Assembly (NCBI GenBank): GCA_017470985.1
Contig: JAFUXA010000005.1
Span: 42,312-106,311, forward strand
Reading direction: 5' to 3'
Source of the DNA: Lachnospiraceae bacterium
GTDB taxonomy: Bacteria > Bacillota > Clostridia > Lachnospirales > Lachnospiraceae
DNA length: 64,000 nucleotides
The notes below the pieces were generated by a model that ran no database searches, was not told where the DNA came from, and saw only the letters and a program-made list of their open reading frames with translations. Within the stretch, counting starts at the first letter, position 1. Each line of letters opens with the position of its first letter. The position numbers were made by a program, and so were the translations under genes. This document shows, piece after piece, positions 1-9,614 of the stretch.

Positions 1-13
1 CCAACAAACTCAT
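1..13 (-). CDS. Start of a downstream gene, probably the permease partner of the MetN-like ATPase (partial)
   Basis: The last bases of the ATPase gene form an ATGA overlap: its TGA stop is at 10-12 and an ATG lies at 11-13 on the same strand. The four codons visible read Met-Ser-Leu-Leu before the window ends. A four-base overlap with an ABC ATPase is typical of a permease gene such as MetI, but the protein itself is not visible, so the identity rests on position alone. Confidence 0.35.
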
Positions 14-792
14 ATTCCCTCTCCTTCCGAAAAACTAATATTTTGAAACTCTTGTAACACTTTGGCAAACAAAGCTCCTGTACGGCTTGTTGGATTACTG
101 AAAATGGACTGTACACTGCCTTTTTCAATAAACTTACCATTTTCCAACACGGCCATCTGGGAACAACAGTATCTGATTGCCTCTAATTCATGGGTAATCA
201 TCAAAATTGTTATACCGGATTTCTTGTTAATTTCTTTCAACAAATCCAGAATCTGTATGGTAGTCTGAGGGTCCAGTGCTGATGTAGCTTCATCAGATAT
301 TAATATATCCGGCTTGTTAACCAGGGCTCTGGCTATACCAACTCGCTGCTTCTGCCCGCCGGACAATCCACCGGGATATGCATCAAGCTTATCTGAAAGT
401 CCAACCATCTCTGCAGTCTCCAAAACCCTCTTGTGTATCTCAGATTTGGACACACCACTTATCTCTAAGGGATAAGCAATATTCTTATAAACTGTTCTTG
501 AATCAAACAGGTTAAAAGTCTGAAATACCATGCCGATTTTCTTTCTCTGCTCTAAAAGTTCGCGCTTATTCAATTTCAGAATATCCACGCCTCCCACTAC
601 GACGCTTCCGCCGTCCGGGCTTTCCAGGCGATTTATACATCTTGCCAAAGTGGATTTTCCGGCCCCACTGAAACCGATGATTCCGAAAATCGAACCCTTC
701 TCTACATCCAGGTCCACGCCCTTGAGCACTTCCAGTTCTCTGCCATGCACTTCAAAAGTCTTCTTCAAATCTCTTATCTCTATATAACTCAA
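10..792 (-). CDS. MetN-like ABC transporter ATP-binding protein without the C-terminal sensor domain
   Basis: ATPase of a methionine-type ABC importer. Of 260 residues, the Walker A motif GFSGAGKST is at about 40-48, the Q-loop Gln at 91, the LSGGQ signature at 143-147, Walker B ILISDE at 163-168 and the H-loop His at 201. The run of sequence between these motifs is characteristic of MetN. Typical MetN proteins are about 340 residues and end in an NIL/ACT-like domain that lets methionine shut the transporter down; this one stops soon after the ATPase core, so that control is absent. The reading frame opens with TTG at 792 and no in-frame ATG is available; a weak ribosome site precedes it. The gene follows the nitrogenase-like operon on the same strand after an 88-bp gap and overlaps the next gene, so it may import or export a small sulfur compound used or made by that enzyme. 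The substrate is inferred. Confidence 0.85.
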   Translation of the reverse strand: MSYIEIRDLKKTFEVHGRELEVLKGVDLDVEKGSIFGIIGFSGAGKSTLARCINRLESPDGGSVVVGGVDILKLNKRELLEQRKKIGMVFQTFNLFDSRTVYKNIAYPLEISGVSKSEIHKRVLETAEMVGLSDKLDAYPGGLSGGQKQRVGIARALVNKPDILISDEATSALDPQTTIQILDLLKEINKKSGITILMITHELEAIRYCCSQMAVLENGKFIEKGSVQSIFSNPTSRTGALFAKVLQEFQNISFSEGEGI

Positions 793-824
793 AACAACTT
801 CATCGTGGTCGTATACAGTTCCAC
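789..824 (-). other. Possible short leader ORF coupled to the MetN-like gene
   Basis: A GTG at 822-824 sits just after an AGGAAAGGAG ribosome site and opens an 11-codon frame (MELYTTTMKLF) whose TGA at 789-791 overlaps the TTG start of the ATPase gene. This could give translational coupling. A small inverted repeat, GATGTG (837-842) with CACATC (849-854), lies immediately upstream. The alternative is a one-base deletion in the TTTT run at 791-794: one more T would put the ATG at 801-803 in frame with the ATPase. Confidence 0.25.
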
Positions 825-880
825 TTCTCCTTTCCTGATGTGCTATAACACATCATATTTTCTATTAATGATTATTTGCA

Positions 881-2161
881 TCAGCCATGGCTGAAGGTCT
901 CCACTGCTTCCACATCTCTGTCCTTGTACAGTTCAGAGTGCAAATCCTTGCCCTTTCCCGGAATTCCAAGGGCATCTGCACGACAATGCTTACAATGACG
1001 GAATACCTCCAGATATTTTCCTGCCTCAGCTCGCACCTTATCAAGCATCACACAGTCCGGGGCTGGTATATCTTTCATACCATTCTGAGGAATCAATGGA
1101 ATGATATTCAAAAGTGAAGCTCCAAGTTCTGATGTAACCCTGGCCACTTCTGCAATGTGATGATCATTCACACCAGGCACTAGAACCGTATTGATCTTGA
1201 TTACAATTCCTAACTCAGCTGCTCTCTTAATACCTTTTAACTGATTATTAATAAGGAGTTTCGCACCTTCTACTCCGGAAGTTTTTACTCCATTTTCATC
1301 AATTACAAATTCATTAATCTGAGCTTCAATCTCCGGATCAACAGCGTTTACTGTTACTGTAATTGTCTCAATACCAATTTCTGCTATCTCCTCCACTCTA
1401 TCAAGGAGGCGGAAGCCATTGGTTGACAGACAACATATCAACTCCGGAAACTCTTTCTTCACCAGGGCAAATGTATCCAGGGCATGTCTTGTAGCCAATG
1501 TATCTCCAGGGCCGGCAATTCCAACCACTGATAACTCAGGACACAATTCCTTGGCTCGCTTGATAACATCCACTGATTCTTCCGGTTTCAGTACCAGAGA
1601 ACTTACTCCAGGTCGAATCAGAGACTTGTCAAATTGTCTTGTACAGAATTTACACTGTATATTACATGCCGGGCTTACCGGTAGATGAATTCTTCCGGCT
1701 GACACATTGGCCTCGCCACCCATACATGGATGTCTCTTTTTCAAATGTGCAAATCTAATCTCGTTCAGCTCTGTCACTTCAGCCTGAGGTCGAATATTAT
1801 CCACCAGACGCTTTTCATCAATCAGCTTCACTTTGCCATATAAAATGTTATCTATGACCTCATCTATCCCTCTCTCCACATCTACAATCTGTATACCTTT
1901 GGAGCTTAAAATGCTTTTTGCTCCGGGGCCACTACATTCAGCAAATACCACGTGACAATCAATTAATCGATTTGCCACATTTTCCATTCTCACATCGTGA
2001 TGCTCATGATTGAGACAAGCTTTATCCACCTCTCTTACCTCTATATAACGATAGGTCTTGTCCCCTGTATTCACTTCATATATGTCAAATCTATCTGCCG
2101 CACCAAAATGTCTATCAATGTCTAGTCCATTACTGGATGCGAATGCTGTCTTTATAATCAT
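881..2161 (-). CDS. nifB: NifB-like radical SAM cofactor maturase with an N-terminal NifX-like domain
   Basis: NifB builds the carbide-centred Fe8S9C precursor (NifB-co) of nitrogenase-type cofactors. The frame can open at GTG 2170, but ATG at 2161 has an AGGTGG site five bases upstream and is preferred (426 residues). Residues about 1-110 resemble the NifX/NafY cofactor-binding fold (FGAADRFDIYEV). From about 140 the NifB core follows: an HPC motif (Cys146), the SAM-cluster motif CNIQCKFC (Cys166, 170, 173), RPGVSS, GIAGPGDTLA, STNG, TVTVNAVDPE, and HCKHCRADA near residues 389-397. These are the cluster-ligand motifs of genuine NifB. In usual two-domain NifB the NifX-like part is C-terminal; here the order is reversed. 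It lies 17 bp after nifH in the same operon, so it presumably supplies the cofactor for the neighbouring D/K-like subunits. Confidence 0.9.
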   Translation of the reverse strand: MIIKTAFASSNGLDIDRHFGAADRFDIYEVNTGDKTYRYIEVREVDKACLNHEHHDVRMENVANRLIDCHVVFAECSGPGAKSILSSKGIQIVDVERGIDEVIDNILYGKVKLIDEKRLVDNIRPQAEVTELNEIRFAHLKKRHPCMGGEANVSAGRIHLPVSPACNIQCKFCTRQFDKSLIRPGVSSLVLKPEESVDVIKRAKELCPELSVVGIAGPGDTLATRHALDTFALVKKEFPELICCLSTNGFRLLDRVEEIAEIGIETITVTVNAVDPEIEAQINEFVIDENGVKTSGVEGAKLLINNQLKGIKRAAELGIVIKINTVLVPGVNDHHIAEVARVTSELGASLLNIIPLIPQNGMKDIPAPDCVMLDKVRAEAGKYLEVFRHCKHCRADALGIPGKGKDLHSELYKDRDVEAVETFSHG

Positions 2162-2178
2162 TGTTACCACCTGTAAAA

Positions 2179-3063
<885 letters not shown>

Positions 3064-3077
3064 CTAATCACTAAATC

Positions 3078-4412
3078 TTATCTATATGTGGCAAGTACTC
3101 TGTCATAGATATCCTCTATAGCTCTAAGTCCGCCTTCATAACCTGTATAACCACAGTTCATAATCAATCTGTACTGAACTGGAGGTGATACAATAAGCAA
3201 ATCCGCATTAAGCTTACTTGCCAGATTCTTGTCCCATGCACTTCCGAGAATTAGTATTCTTTTGTCCTCATAATTCTTGGCATCCTCTTCCAGCTTTTTC
3301 TGAGAATTTCCTGCATCCGGATCAAATACAACTTCGATCTCTCTCTTATTTCCAAGTTCAGAAATATTTTCAAACTGATCTAATACATACTTCTGATATT
3401 TCTCAGGAATGTCATCTACGATGAACTGTGTTCCTGGAATAATTCCAAGCTCATTTAACAGAAACTTCGAAAATCCCAATGAGTAAGAGCTGTCAGCAAT
3501 TGAGTACACTCTACGAGGAATACCATATCTGAACTCCAACATGAAGGAAGCCATCTTCTCGATATGCTCATAGTATTTTGCCTCTTCACGCTCGATATAT
3601 CCCTCAACCTTGTCCTTATCCAATCCTGCGAACTCGCCAACTTCCCGCAGGAATCTGGATGTCTCTATAGCGCCGATTGGCAGGTATGGGAACTGGAGAA
3701 ATGGTTGCTGATATTTCACCTTGAGATGCTTGGCAGCCTTCAATCCTACCCATGGACCAATTACAATATTGAACTGGGCATTTGGAATTGTCTTCCACTC
3801 GCTTACACCTTCTGATTCTCCGCCAAATAATATATTTACCTTCAAACCAATGTCTGTCAGTATCTTCTTAATGCCTTCCAGGTTTCCATTCCAATATGGG
3901 TCCTGATAAGGAATAGAAGCAAATACATTTACAAGGCCTTCTACCTTCTCATCACTTTCATGGAATTTATCAACATACTGATCAATAATGGCATTGAGTA
4001 ATCTGTCATGAGCAGCGTAATTGTTGCTCTTAAAACCGCCTTCTTCCACATATACAATCGGCTTGTCTTCTTCCTGAAATTCTCCTGTGACAGCTGCTAC
4101 ATCATCACCTGTTATAGCCGCTGTACAACCGGTAACTACTACGAATAATTCTCCGTCTATTACCTTGAAAGCATTCTCTATAACGCTTCTAAGTTTCTTC
4201 TCGCCGCCAAATACAACATCCTGTTCCTCTGCATTTGTACATGGAGCTGTGGAACCACCTGCGTAGCCCTCACCCTGCCCGATAATGCGATTAACCTGCC
4301 CACCGCAGCCAGGTCCGGAATGTAGAATCGGCACTCCTTTCTTTATTGCTACAACGCTCTGATATGAACCCAGAGCACAAGTAAATCTTGGTTGTTCTAT
4401 TGCCTGTGACAT
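3078..4412 (-). CDS. Nitrogenase-like component 1, NifK/NifE-type subunit
   Basis: A 444-residue protein of the nitrogenase component 1 family. Cysteines in the places of the three beta-subunit P-cluster ligands are visible: Cys12 (FTCALGSY), Cys36 (GPGCGGQV) and Cys96 (VVTGCTAAITGDDV); an additional Cys58 lies between them. The GGEKKL segment at 69-74 is also a family hallmark. The protein is shorter than NifK (about 520) because it lacks the long N-terminal extension. An ATG at 4412 follows a GGAG site, and the gene starts 9 bp after the stop of the D-like subunit, suggesting a coupled heterodimer. Its pairing with only one partner, NifH and NifB matches simple nitrogenase-like enzymes and not the NifDK plus NifEN set needed for nitrogen fixation. 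The substrate cannot be read from the sequence. Confidence 0.88.
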   Translation of the reverse strand: MSQAIEQPRFTCALGSYQSVVAIKKGVPILHSGPGCGGQVNRIIGQGEGYAGGSTAPCTNAEEQDVVFGGEKKLRSVIENAFKVIDGELFVVVTGCTAAITGDDVAAVTGEFQEEDKPIVYVEEGGFKSNNYAAHDRLLNAIIDQYVDKFHESDEKVEGLVNVFASIPYQDPYWNGNLEGIKKILTDIGLKVNILFGGESEGVSEWKTIPNAQFNIVIGPWVGLKAAKHLKVKYQQPFLQFPYLPIGAIETSRFLREVGEFAGLDKDKVEGYIEREEAKYYEHIEKMASFMLEFRYGIPRRVYSIADSSYSLGFSKFLLNELGIIPGTQFIVDDIPEKYQKYVLDQFENISELGNKREIEVVFDPDAGNSQKKLEEDAKNYEDKRILILGSAWDKNLASKLNADLLIVSPPVQYRLIMNCGYTGYEGGLRAIEDIYDRVLATYR

Positions 4413-4421
4413 CGTTTTCTC

Positions 4422-5900
4422 CTATCTGCATCCGCCGCTTCGTCCACCTTGAAAATACCCTGGTTCCTGTGTCAGCCACCACTCGGTATATGGGTTGGAT
4501 GAATGCTTCGAAAAATTCTTAATAAATTCTATTGAATCAAGTGTCTCGTCGATTCGTCTCGCGTAATTAAGTGCCCCTTGATATCCAATTCCAAACTGCT
4601 CATCACCAATCAACAATGTCGGTATACCAAGCTTCGCTCCCCATAATGTCATACCGCCGTGTCGAGCCATAATGAAGTCCGGTTTATTTCTAATAAGTGC
4701 ATTTACAAGCTCACAGCTCTGCTTGTTACATACACGGTAATCTTTGACATCACCGTAGGTATTAACTGCATGAGCCAATACATCCAGCTCTCTATCCTCA
4801 CTATCGTAGATTGGATCGTGGTGGAATACGCTTGCACCAATTACTTCAAAGCCCAATTCGTTCAACAGATGTATCAAAGCCTGTCCATGAGCAGCACCTG
4901 CTGTTACATATGCTTTCTTACCTTTGAAGCGCTCCTTCAGCTTCTCGATCTGTGGCACATACTTCTCATGTCCCTCTCGAATTATTTCTTCTGCTATATC
5001 TTCCTTACCAAGAACCTTTCCCAAAGCTCTAAGCCATCCATCTGTACCATCTATTCCATAAGCTGGGGGAGCAGTTATCTCCGGCACTCCATATAACTGA
5101 GATAATCCTGCGCCCATGTATGTAGACAGTGAAGGACATATATGCACTGTTGCTGCCGCCTCACTTACATGCTCAAGCTCCTCAATAGAAGCAAATGGCA
5201 TAATGTACTGAGCTTCATAACCGAATCTTTCAAATATCTCATCAAACACATGGCTTCCCCAGAAGTTGACTACATTTATCTTGTTGGTCTTCTTCTCAGG
5301 CGGCTTTACGATTCCTCTCAAAACTGTGTGATATGCTGCATCAAAACCTGTTGTCCATACCTTTGATCTAAATCCTTCGCAGGAACATGTAACCACTGGA
5401 ATTCCCAGCTCCTCTGTGGCTTTATCAGCTACAGATTCAATATCCTCTCCAATAATTCCTGATGCACATGAGGTTGTGATAAATATTGCCTTGGGATTAA
5501 CTCTCTCGTAAGCAAGCTTTATTGTCTCCTCCAATTTCTTGGTGGCACCGAATACTGTGTCCTTCTCCTGAATGTTGGTTGAGAAATATCTTCCAATATC
5601 CTCTGGCAAATCTCTCTTATCCTGCTCAATTCTATAAGTGAAGTTGAAATCTGCAAACTCTCCGGCACATCCTATAGGTGCATGATTTATTACTGCCACA
5701 TCCTTTATCATTGCCAACTGGCAAAAGGCCTGCTGGGCATTACATCCCAAACACTGTGAAAATTTTCTTTTTGCATCACGCAATGTTCCATCCTGAGATT
5801 GCTGTACAATCTCTGCTGCTGTTCCGGTAAATGCATTTATTGTTCCAAGTCTTTTCTCTCGTATCATTACGCTTGGCTCTGCTAAATTAATGGATGGCAT
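4422..5900 (-). CDS. Nitrogenase-like component 1, NifD-type subunit
   Basis: First gene of the operon, 492 residues. Candidate P-cluster cysteines are Cys50 or Cys53 (QCLGC), Cys78 (APIGCAGEF) and Cys145 (TTSCASGIIGEDIESV); their spacing of about 25 and 67 fits NifD (62, 88, 154 in Azotobacter). Cys255 in VHICPSLSTYMGAGL aligns with the NifD cysteine that anchors the cofactor. The region where NifD has its cofactor histidine (consensus HSWDYSGPYHG) reads LLIGDEQFGIGYQG here, so that His is not seen. ATG 5900 has a strong AAGGAGG site. Group assignment within the nitrogenase-like family is open: absence of nifE, nifN and nifV in view argues against nitrogenase, and the B-H-D-K gene content resembles methylthio-alkane reductase (Mar) loci. 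That last step is inference. Confidence 0.88.
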   Translation of the reverse strand: MPSINLAEPSVMIREKRLGTINAFTGTAAEIVQQSQDGTLRDAKRKFSQCLGCNAQQAFCQLAMIKDVAVINHAPIGCAGEFADFNFTYRIEQDKRDLPEDIGRYFSTNIQEKDTVFGATKKLEETIKLAYERVNPKAIFITTSCASGIIGEDIESVADKATEELGIPVVTCSCEGFRSKVWTTGFDAAYHTVLRGIVKPPEKKTNKINVVNFWGSHVFDEIFERFGYEAQYIMPFASIEELEHVSEAAATVHICPSLSTYMGAGLSQLYGVPEITAPPAYGIDGTDGWLRALGKVLGKEDIAEEIIREGHEKYVPQIEKLKERFKGKKAYVTAGAAHGQALIHLLNELGFEVIGASVFHHDPIYDSEDRELDVLAHAVNTYGDVKDYRVCNKQSCELVNALIRNKPDFIMARHGGMTLWGAKLGIPTLLIGDEQFGIGYQGALNYARRIDETLDSIEFIKNFSKHSSNPYTEWWLTQEPGYFQGGRSGGCR

Positions 5901-5949
5901 AATGTTCCTCCTTGTATTTTGTACATTCTTGTTTTTTTACTTGCGTTCC

Positions 5950-5978
5950 ATTATATCCTCAGAGTTAAGCCTTGTATA
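5950..5978 (-). promoter_or_regulatory. Predicted sigma-70 promoter of the nitrogenase-like operon
   Basis: On the minus strand TATACA (5973-5978) is separated by 17 bp from a consensus TATAAT (5950-5955), placing transcription start near 5943 with a leader of about 40 bases. No sigma-54 element (TGGCAC-N5-TTGC) and no long riboswitch-like leader is visible, unlike NifA-controlled nif operons. Confidence 0.55.
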
Positions 5979-6020
5979 ATACATGGTTACTATTGCCCGT
6001 TATAAATAATATTTATCACA

Positions 6021-6058
6021 AAACAAAAAATCCTGAGCAGTAACACCTACTCAGGATT
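6021..6058 (-). terminator. Rho-independent terminator of the nitroreductase gene
   Basis: Arms AATCCTGAG (6029-6037, read on plus) and CTCAGGATT (6050-6058) form a 9-bp stem; on the minus strand it is followed by a T-run. It separates the nitroreductase gene from the nitrogenase-like operon. Confidence 0.8.
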
Positions 6059-6105: not shown

Positions 6106-6915
6106 TTAATTTATATGTACACTAACTATGTACTCTGCATCTGATGGAATCTCAATTTCTGGATTCAAGAACTCTAACTCCACAGTTTTGCCGATGTTTT
6201 CAAATCCCAAAACCAGGTGGCTAAGAGCAATTCCCACATCAATTTTCTGCAAGTCTCCAGTGTTTGGTTTATCATATCCCTTGTCCTTTTTCTCGAAGAG
6301 ATGATATACACCATCCTTGCAAATGATTCTCCATGGCTGCTTATTCACTGCTGAAGGAGCCCATTTCACCATCTCAAATACATCTGCTAAATCATCACTG
6401 ATTTCAAGAGGATTACCCCACTCATTTGCAAAGAACAATTTGCTGTTATCAAATCTTGAATCTGCTCCAATACCTTTTCTCATCATGGTATCCTTTACAG
6501 ATCTCTTCTTTGCCGGATATCCAAGAGGGCTGATACATGGCATGATCTCACCATCTGCCACACCTGCCGCTGCCTCGAACAACTCTCTCTTCATTGTTCC
6601 ACCAATCATTACCGAACCTACTCCCAAAGACCACGCGTGAAGTAAAACCTTTTCAAAGGTATATCCAAACGCAATATCTGCGTGAGGTTTCTTCTCCACT
6701 TTGCCGGCGATATATAACTTTTCCCCTGTTAATACCGGGCTGGATAATCCATTTTCTTCAGCATCAAGCAGCACGAATTTCACAGGGATATCAAAAGGAT
6801 TTGACACTTCCTCCATATATTTTGCTATGCTGCATCTATCTTCTTCACTAATTTGATTACCATCAAATGTACGCACGCTTTTGCGTGTTTTTATTAAATC
6901 TAATAATTCACTCAT
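6106..6915 (-). CDS. Nitroreductase-family flavoprotein (TM1586-like)
   Basis: A 269-residue protein with the two-lobed layout of the TM1586-type nitroreductase family: an N-terminal TRKSVRTFDG segment at about 10-19 typical of FMN-binding nitroreductases, and a second lobe with WAPSAVNKQPWR near residues 186-197. Members probably use FMN and NAD(P)H; natural substrates are mostly unknown. The start has a GGAGG site seven bases upstream. It is monocistronic between two hairpin terminators, directly upstream of the nitrogenase-like operon but not cotranscribed with it, so a functional link would be speculation. Confidence 0.8.
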   Translation of the reverse strand: MSELLDLIKTRKSVRTFDGNQISEEDRCSIAKYMEEVSNPFDIPVKFVLLDAEENGLSSPVLTGEKLYIAGKVEKKPHADIAFGYTFEKVLLHAWSLGVGSVMIGGTMKRELFEAAAGVADGEIMPCISPLGYPAKKRSVKDTMMRKGIGADSRFDNSKLFFANEWGNPLEISDDLADVFEMVKWAPSAVNKQPWRIICKDGVYHLFEKKDKGYDKPNTGDLQKIDVGIALSHLVLGFENIGKTVELEFLNPEIEIPSDAEYIVSVHIN

Positions 6916-8468: not shown

Positions 8469-9614
8469 TTAATACTCATCCAGAAAATGATGACGCTGAC
8501 CATGCTTCTTATAAGCAATAACTGTATCTACATTAACATTTTCTACGCTCTTGAAAATGTTGGACTCCACATAAGGGTTGACCTCCTTAAGTTGAGCAAT
8601 CAATTTCTTGGTCTCAAGACGCTTTGATGAAGTCGTTCCATCCTCGTGACAAGTTGAACAAGTATCTGTAAAATGGCATGCGCATTGTAAGAAATGTAAA
8701 TTGTTATAATCGCGCCATGCACATATGTCACTTTCTCTCACCAGATAGAGAGGACGGATAAGCTCCATTCCCTCAAAGTTGGTACTGTGAAGTTTCGGCA
8801 TCATGGTCTGAACCTGTGCGCCATATAACATGCCCATAAGAATTGTCTCAATAACATCATCATAATGATGTCCAAGGGCAATTTTGTTGCAGCCCAACTC
8901 CTTGGCCTTGTTATATAGATAACCTCTGCGCATTCTGGCGCATAGATAGCATGGATTCTTGTCAATGGTATCTACCGCATCGAAAATATCACTTTCGAAT
9001 ATTGTAATTGGAATGCCTAAAGCCTTGGCATTGCTTTCTATCAATGCTCTGTTATCCTTGTTATAACCCGGATCCATTACCATAAATGTCAATTCAAAAT
9101 TGCACTGTCTATGCTTCTGTATCTCCTGAAAGAGCTTCGCCATAAGCATAGAATCCTTGCCGCCTGAGATACATACCGCAATATGGTCTCCCTCTTCTAT
9201 AAGTCTGTATGTCTTGCAGGCTTTGGCAAATGGTGTGAAAAGCTGCTTGTGAAACTTCTTCTGAATGCTCCTCTCCGCACGCTCTCTGCGCTCTTCCAAA
9301 GAACTGTCCTCAGAAACCTGGGCACACACATATCCCGTGTAACCACCCTTTAGACTGTAGCACTCTCGACCTTTAAGTATATCTGTCACATCCATGTCTC
9401 TGGTCTTTCTGCCAAAATCACAATAGAAAACCAATTTCTTGTCTGCAGGAATGGCCTCTATTGCTGATATTGTCTCCTCTGTCATCTCATCCATAGATAT
9501 AGCTATAGCCCCAGGCATCATACCGTATTCCCTGGCATTCTCATCTCTGATATCTATGAATACATATGCATCTTCAGGTAATTGTTCCAACCTGTCTAAT
9601 GTAATCTCAATCAT
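8469..9614 (-). CDS. Rhodanese-TtcA-type ATP pyrophosphatase fusion, probable tRNA thiolation enzyme
   Basis: A fusion of two sulfur-handling domains in 381 residues. Residues about 1-100 are a rhodanese domain with the persulfide cysteine Cys65 in FYCDFGRKT. Residues about 125-325 are a PP-loop ATPase of the TtcA/TilS superfamily with SGGKDS at 150-155, Cys222 and Cys225 in NPCYLCARMRRG, and a cysteine cluster at 311-322 (CAC, CSTC). TtcA installs 2-thiocytidine at tRNA position 32 using an iron-sulfur cluster. Fusing a rhodanese suggests that sulfur is delivered in the same polypeptide. The exact tRNA position modified cannot be told. The start has a rather distant AAGGAG site. Confidence 0.82.
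   Translation of the reverse strand: MIEITLDRLEQLPEDAYVFIDIRDENAREYGMMPGAIAISMDEMTEETISAIEAIPADKKLVFYCDFGRKTRDMDVTDILKGRECYSLKGGYTGYVCAQVSEDSSLEERRERAERSIQKKFHKQLFTPFAKACKTYRLIEEGDHIAVCISGGKDSMLMAKLFQEIQKHRQCNFELTFMVMDPGYNKDNRALIESNAKALGIPITIFESDIFDAVDTIDKNPCYLCARMRRGYLYNKAKELGCNKIALGHHYDDVIETILMGMLYGAQVQTMMPKLHSTNFEGMELIRPLYLVRESDICAWRDYNNLHFLQCACHFTDTCSTCHEDGTTSSKRLETKKLIAQLKEVNPYVESNIFKSVENVNVDTVIAYKKHGQRHHFLDEY

Follow-up and report, generated by a model that had tools for sequence, protein, structure and literature searches.

The window examined here is a 64,000-nucleotide stretch of a Lachnospiraceae bacterium (assembly GCA_017470985.1, contig JAFUXA010000005.1, positions 42,312 to 106,311), and its first 6 kb carry a nitrogenase-like operon on the minus strand, in which genes for a D subunit, a K subunit, an Fe protein (H) and a NifB-type maturase are followed by a complete MetN-MetI-MetQ-type transporter. 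The D gene (4422-5900, 492 aa, PF00148 match of 281 bits) encodes a NifD homologue, placed below as a sister of methylthio-alkane reductase (Mar), followed by a MarK-like K subunit (3078-4412, 444 aa, PF00148 match of 202 bits), a NifH-type Fe protein (2179-3021, 280 aa, 451 bits against the NCBI nifH equivalog cut-off of 394), a fusion of a NifB-type radical SAM maturase with a NifX-like domain (881-2170, 429 aa, 312 bits and so below its cut-off of 344) and a MetN-type ABC ATPase, without a NIL domain in family and Pfam searches (10-792, 260 aa). The gaps from D to MetN are, in order, 9, 56, 8 and 88 bp. Fetching the contig to the left of the window showed that MetI, whose first codons lie at 1-13, overlaps MetN by 4 bp and runs on beyond base 1 as a 236-aa protein (L010 5615-6325), with a 280-aa MetQ/NlpA-type lipoprotein 82 bp beyond it (L010 4690-5532). 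An earlier note, made from the letters of the window, had described the D, K, H, NifB and MetN genes, and all five were borne out, on the minus strand. The extension past base 1 that it had proposed yielded MetI and the lipoprotein, so its MetN-like ATPase does adjoin the operon, not alone but as the first gene of a complete MetNIQ-type transporter; its "full NifB" is indeed a NifB-type radical SAM protein with a NifX-like domain, though with the domains in inverted order and a score below cut-off.

The source genome, assembled into 35 contigs totalling 2.38 Mb, is 88.8% complete; Lachnospiraceae and the ruminant gut are well supported as its origin, and a genus-mate (G139) has the operon too. 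NifE and NifN had been reported missing from view in the window, and this holds over the whole 88.8%-complete assembly, where no NifEN or NifDK was found elsewhere and the only two PF00148 proteins are the operon's own D and K. The genome has one strong NifH-family match, and a SufS-like gene lies elsewhere in it (L171). Exactly two PF00148 proteins were also present in eight of ten relatives searched (D at least 77% identical), the other two (G798 and G799) having four.

Against solved structures, the top score of D was 427 bits, with Rhodospirillum rubrum MarD, compared with 131 bits for the best nitrogenase, and K matched MarK at 391 bits with the next match at 60 bits. Identity to the R. 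rubrum proteins is 43% for D and 42% for K, whilst D is only 22–25% identical to NifD and NifE of Lachnospiraceae. According to PMC12552129, Cys66/91/158 of MarD and Cys32/56/121 of MarK bind the P-cluster, MarD Cys270 and His429 bind an [Fe8S9C] cluster, Arg428-His429 in Loop I is a possible Mar hallmark, and a possible substrate site is enclosed by MarD His194, which lies beside the S2B site, together with Trp195 and His375. In this numbering, the window D and K keep all six P-cluster cysteines, Cys270, Arg428 and His429, and D also keeps Trp195, Phe199, His375, Cys73 and Gln74; Trp and Phe occupy the positions of nif Gln191 and His195 (equivalence as given in PMC12552129), and the position of MarD His194 is a valine. 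We surveyed these residues in 165 aligned D-type proteins, including 96 of the clade to which the window D belongs (hereafter the window clade), 8 of the Mar clade and 14 nif-group D/E proteins. Histidine was found at position 194 in 8/8 Mar proteins and 0/96 window-clade proteins (valine 46, methionine 38, isoleucine 10, glycine 1, leucine 1), Cys66/91/158/270 and Arg428 in all 96 of the latter and His429 in 95, and Arg428-His429 was missing in 14/14 nif-group proteins. The conservation supports a predicted Mar-type [Fe8S9C] cluster site in D.

In a tree of 49 D proteins (IQ-TREE, careful mode), the Mar clade (100/100) and Mar with its sister group (100/99) were both recovered and the window D lay outside both, in a 21-member clade (92/83) holding an inner clade of 18 (100/99), closest to sequences from Clostridium sp. 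DSM 8431 and the Clostridia metagenome-assembled genome (MAG) Lapin-001. In the K tree (quick mode), the window K grouped with window-type sequences in a clade of 16 rows (100) separate from the Mar rows, and this lay within a clade of window, Mar and Mar-sister sequences (98). The D/K phylogeny, the check that the earlier note had proposed, thus sets the pair in a sister clade outside Mar and in no clade of proven function; the placement it had named as refuting, within NifEN or true NifDK with nifEN elsewhere, was not what we found. Mar proper was rejected as a candidate (D/K outside the MarDK clade, His194 replaced), as were a NifEN paralogue (by the tree), a true nitrogenase with nifEN elsewhere (two PF00148 proteins only in the 88.8%-complete assembly) and isethionate reductase (on residues). 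Clade labels here follow the nearest representative in the tree. The 96 window-clade D proteins count the same genomes twice where two routes reached them (for example L041/L091, L042/L095, L043/L093) and include many near-identical rumen MAGs, and a fairer unit is the 13 clusters at 75% identity, a cluster counting if one member has the gene; the nif D/E set comprises 14 proteins in 12 clusters and 7 loci. D proteins of ≤400 aa and K proteins of ≤390 aa were dropped before counting, some loci end at contig ends, and one set of loci comprises the 80 highest-ranking among 180 confirmed.

Searching plasmids with MarD yielded two records of 43–45% identity (Chlorohelix, Treponema), the other 38 matches listed being at 24–29%. 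Further nitrogenase-like DK clades were seen in Clostridia, which we label CLB, CLD (L058, L060, L062, L076), CLC (L064-L066, L218) and NFLe (L069-L071, L078-L080); one among these further clades has Arg428-His429 without His194, one has Arg-Ala-His, one is loop-less and one has His without Arg, and some genomes have three or more DK pairs.

The H protein is closest among solved structures to Clostridium pasteurianum NifH (1cp2, 477 bits; the MarH chain 9fmg_D gave 283 bits) and shares 72–82% identity with the NifH proteins from six nif loci. In a quick H tree, which gave a long-branch warning and in which MarH was absent, two deeply separate Fe proteins serve the one DK clade, the first in Heliophilum fasciatum (L207), Chlorohelix and a Coriobacteriales MAG (L226, L107) and the second, NifH-type, in Clostridia (L010, L103). 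As one DK clade is paired with two such proteins, the tree points to replacement of the H gene. In the NifB-type protein the NifX-like part comes first (residues 1-125) and the radical SAM part second (140-429), and this inverted fusion was also found in close relatives (L091-L100, L102, L104) and once beside another clade (L078 2816-4003); radical SAM comes first in two nif-operon fusions (L074, L075) and in H. fasciatum (L207).

Gene context ties the clade to sulfur. A homologue of cystathionine lyase (CGL), O-acetylhomoserine sulfhydrylase (OAHS) or CysK was found within 8 kb for 71/96 window-clade D genes (9/13 clusters), compared with 0/14 for nif D/E, and at least two of MetN, MetI and MetQ at 29/96 (7/13 clusters), again compared with 0/14; SsuC-like permeases occur within 8 kb in 7/13 clusters by a loose similarity criterion. 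Neighbours were named by their best NCBIfam match, mostly below the family cut-off: the CGL-type protein scored 552 bits (cut-off 594), cysteine synthase 352 (351, a pass), the SsuA family 93 (164), the Rrf2 superfamily 90 (73, a pass) and four OAHS proteins 458–501 (495, one passing). Two of six neighbours of ~430 aa tested were not OAHS (an enolase and an unassigned protein), and the sulfur-gene counts use similarity to a confirmed family member. The source genome holds several PF01053 genes, including a CGL-CysK-MetQ-MetN-MetI cluster (L171). The position of MetNIQ varies by genus (before, after or between the reductase genes), which therefore argues for function rather than inherited gene order. 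The linked MetN was 259–299 aa long in 27/27 cases, a count restricted to MetNs that share 48% identity or more with that of the window and thus leaving aside a 353-aa MetN with a NIL domain beside a window-type D in L102. The NIL domain is methionine-sensing, and Pfam found it in none of six linked MetNs and in both longer controls (source genome; L102). Because the linked MetNs are short and without a NIL domain, the importer linked to the clade would mostly be a specialised MetNIQ. The earlier suggestion that the adjacent MetN-like ATPase fits sulfur traffic is supported by this context.

In three genomes, a Mar-clade and a window-clade DK pair sit together within a single cluster of sulfur genes (L119, Ruminococcus; L170, Pectinatus haikarae; L210, G569), directly adjacent in the last two; for example, the order in L170 is CGL-CysK-MetNIQ-Mar DK-window DK-OAHS. 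H. fasciatum also has both types of pair, on separate contigs. As they share a sulfur gene cluster, the Mar and window-type pairs are probably not redundant, and different substrates are the simplest reason for their co-occurrence. We also searched seven clade genomes for sulfate assimilation, using PF01077 (NIR_SIR) and PF01507 (PAPS reductase). The former was found in one of the seven (Clostridium sp. DSM 8431, G801) and had no match in the source genome (88.8% complete) or in four clade isolates (0/5), and the latter was found in three (G801; Ruminococcus albus 8, G806; Lachnospiraceae G11, G794, a short match). Neither family was found in the source genome, Agathobacter ruminis JK623, Butyrivibrio MB2005 or WCD3002, and these four seem to rely on organic sulfur or sulfide, which need not hold for the more distant members. 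Such an absence from an 88.8%-complete genome is weak alone and is strengthened by the isolates.

From the residues, trees and neighbourhoods together, we consider it likely that the operon encodes a two-component, nitrogenase-type, C–S-cleaving, sulfur-scavenging reductase that is a sister of Mar and acts on a different substrate. The NifB-type enzyme would build an [Fe8S9C] L-type cluster, which may pass straight into D at the Cys270/His429/Arg428 site, without NifEN, molybdenum or homocitrate; H would then deliver electrons, with ATP hydrolysis, through the P-cluster to the L-type cluster, where the C–S bond of a small organosulfur compound would be reductively cleaved to release a thiol or sulfide. 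The usual substrate of MetNIQ is methionine. As the linked importer is of this type, the compound it would supply is most likely an amino-acid-like thioether, the least certain step of the scheme, and the thiol or sulfide could enter methionine or cysteine through OAHS, CysK and cystathionine lyase. A broader reading, which we advance tentatively and regard as somewhat more doubtful than not, is that the clade forms a separate class of nitrogenase-cluster enzyme, so far without a name, whose members reduce a thioether of amino-acid type after its import, in many cases through a dedicated MetNIQ lacking the NIL domain, and work beside Mar on a different substrate; that together with related nitrogenase-like clades it accounts for most Lachnospiraceae "nifH"; and that the heliobacterial NflDK1 discussed below is a sulfur enzyme and not the predicted nitrogenase.

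Several observations weigh against a dedicated sulfur reductase of this kind. Sulfur genes also lie near D of other clades (Mar 4/7, Mar-sister 3/4, window-outgroup 1/2, CLB 6/12, CLD 3/6, NFLe 10/16; CLC 0/4 and Isr-like 0/2), and the sulfur context marks a wider nitrogenase-like group rather than the window clade alone, with MetNIQ commonest in the window clade. The window locus itself has MetNIQ and no sulfur pyridoxal-phosphate (PLP) gene within 8 kb, as for 25/96 D genes, and OAHS or CGL stands immediately upstream of D in only 7/96. Genes for sulfate assimilation are retained in G801 (both families) and G806 (PF01507), two members of the clade that are more distant. The D-clade node (92/83) is below star level, the deeper window-clade node in the K tree is weak (28) with one window-type K outside it, H is NifH-type and not MarH-type, and Mar chemistry cannot be assumed with another residue in place of His194, which in Mar lies close to the substrate site.

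This last point also bears on the possibility that the operon is Mar proper in a diverged lineage, acting on Mar's own substrates (2-methylthioethanol, dimethyl sulfide, ethyl methyl sulfide), for which the shared gene set (B, H, D and K), the same ligands and the retention of Trp195, Phe199, His375, Cys73 and Gln74 speak, as does the MetNIQ adjoining the Mar pair in L170. We consider it unlikely, as the Mar clade is itself separate at 100/100, position 194 divides the two clades completely, Mar and window-type pairs stand together in one gene cluster in three genomes, and volatile substrates would be hard to square with a MetNIQ-type importer. That the operon is a minimal nitrogenase of group IV-A ("Nfa"), whose L-cluster reduces N2 without NifEN, would accord with the NifH-type H, with the N2 reduction of which the L-cluster on NifEN or NifB is capable (PMC13245594) and with the demonstrated N2 fixation of E. 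proavitum despite a NifD without the usual His (PMC11257099, PMC4995403); the window pair is also an ortholog of heliobacterial NflDK1, for which PMC9147875 gives a position beside NfaDK of E. proavitum and a predicted role in N2 fixation, NfaDK being linked to the window through NflDK1 only. The site is nonetheless Mar-type, with Trp/Phe for nif Gln/His and Arg428-His429 present, Mar with that site gave no N2 reduction (PMC12552129) and the gene context is one of sulfur, not nitrogen, which makes a nitrogenase quite improbable. A sulfonate or sulfoxide reductase with Isr-like physiology, served in some members by SsuABC-type importers, would suit the SsuC-like permeases in 7/13 clusters (loose criterion). 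It is very improbable for the window, where the operon has MetNIQ, not SsuABC, the source genome is without an NIR_SIR match for sulfite use, and all P-cluster cysteines, Cys270 and a NifB-type enzyme are present, whilst IsrD as described in PMC11423573 is without two of the P-cluster cysteines and the Cys275/His442 equivalents and IsrB is BciD-like. The earlier note had left Mar, a sister enzyme with a new substrate and a minimal nitrogenase side by side; the sister enzyme fits best, Mar is unsupported (clade, His194) and the minimal nitrogenase is disfavoured.

A sulfur-scavenging reductase would also bear on heliobacteria. PMC9147875 gives D1, K1 and NflH of H. fasciatum as consecutive by gene number, followed by pairs 2 and 3, and the gene order in our loci L207/L208 (G446) matches, so that G446 is very probably H. 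fasciatum and its window-type D would then be that of NflDK1. For H. mobile (L106), two pairs are spaced just as the accession numbers of NflDK4 and NflDK1 are, which differ by 9, and this likewise points to NflDK1 as the window-type pair there. The window D is 61–62% identical to heliobacterial NflDK1 D (61% in H. fasciatum), in the same clade and orthologous. In PMC9147875, NflDK1 clusters with NfaDK of E. proavitum and is predicted to serve as nitrogenase in H. fasciatum, a diazotroph that lacks both nifDK and nifEN. We question that assignment, because in both heliobacterial loci OAHS ends ~10 bp before D, with MetNIQ near D in L106 and SsuABC-type and CysK genes in L207. It must be set against this that the only NifH over cut-off in the H. 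fasciatum genome adjoins NflDK1 and that the species is reported to fix N2. As Mar reduces acetylene and not N2 (PMC12552129), acetylene tests alone would not be decisive.

Upstream of D lies a promoter-like TATACA-N17-TATAAT (5950-5978, minus strand) with 10/12 consensus matches. The earlier note had one promoter preceding the operon; the scan alone is not significant (3 sites found, 2.0 expected), but the -35/-10 pair is kept upstream of D in 9/12 aligned regions. Directly upstream of it, three ATA blocks are conserved at constant distances from one another (region 5950-6020 in the window; upstream of D in L091-L102), and this element might be positioned like an activator site. LysR- and CymR-like regulator genes occur near several loci, and a known RNA regulator (SAM riboswitch, T-box) was rejected, there being no Rfam match in the nine loci searched. 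A terminator-like hairpin (6029-6058, minus strand) separates the operon from a TM1586-type nitroreductase gene directly upstream (6106-6915), no homologue of which was labelled among ten close-relative loci (L091-L100). The translation of an open reading frame at 8469-9614, judged by eye only, resembles a fusion of rhodanese and TtcA-like (PP-loop) domains.

The operon types described here also affect the use of nifH as a marker. Amongst 397 Lachnospiraceae genomes, 52 had a NifH over the NCBI curated cut-off and 12 had a NifE over cut-off, all 12 within the 52, and the other 40 all fall within the 60 genomes having a nitrogenase-like D match. For Lachnospiraceae, the curated nifH model thus seems to overestimate the number of nitrogen fixers by a factor of about four. 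A window-type D (at least 50% identity) was present in only 10 of the 40, the remainder being other clades. Clostridia are already reported to be rich in "pseudo-nifH" (PMC8597730), and nitrogenases were counted by NifH in 23% of 501 rumen genomes in a study that calls rumen N2 fixation negligible (PMC6776011); what is new here is the operon types to which these H genes belong. The operons thus bear both on that richness and on the rumen puzzle of many putative nitrogenase genes with negligible N2 fixation, and operons of this general kind could explain the many gut bacteria that have a nif marker gene without other nitrogenase genes. A widespread Mar-sister clade with a changed active-site residue also makes scaffold control of N2 versus C–S chemistry testable in cultured strains, such as A. 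ruminis JK623, Butyrivibrio MB2005 and WCD3002, which have a single such DK pair. In titles and abstract starts, with most subscription journals outside coverage, we found no publication on this operon in rumen or gut bacteria, and the literature search found no paper joining nitrogenase-like enzymes with MetNIQ.

Amongst known systems, [Fe8S9C]-type clusters have so far been described in nitrogenase assembly proteins, Mar and an MCR activation complex, and the cofactors of nitrogenase are closely related to them (PMC12552129, PMC13245594). Mo-nitrogenase (NifHDK with NifENB) resembles the window operon in its P-cluster cysteines and in NifH, to which the window H is 72–82% identical; the window differs in that no NifEN was found, in the Trp/Phe at Gln191/His195 and in a D only 22–25% identical to NifD/NifE. 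Isethionate reductase IsrBHDK is likewise nitrogenase-like, with C–S cleavage proposed for sulfur assimilation, but IsrD as described has only one of the three NifD P-cluster cysteines and no L-cluster ligands, and IsrB is BciD-like (PMC11423573), whereas the window keeps all cysteines. Heliobacterial NflDK1 (H. fasciatum, H. mobile; PMC9147875) is of the same clade, with a D 61–62% identical and a sulfur gene cluster with OAHS, and differs in an H (L207) that is 51% identical and groups with MarH in that study, in a NifB of the usual domain order and in its prediction as a nitrogenase. Mar (MarBHDK of R. rubrum; PDB 9FMG, 9D9U), which converts methylthio-alkanes into methanethiol and a hydrocarbon, has in common with the window D and K at 43% and 42% identity, the P-cluster cysteines, Cys270, Arg428-His429, Trp195, Phe199, His375, NifB-type and H companions and the sulfur context. 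The window operon differs from Mar in belonging to a separate clade in which His194 is replaced by Val, Met or Ile, in its NifH-type Fe protein, in its inverted NifX-NifB fusion (the domain order of MarB being outside the comparison) and in a MetNIQ that, where linked, usually has a NIL-less MetN.

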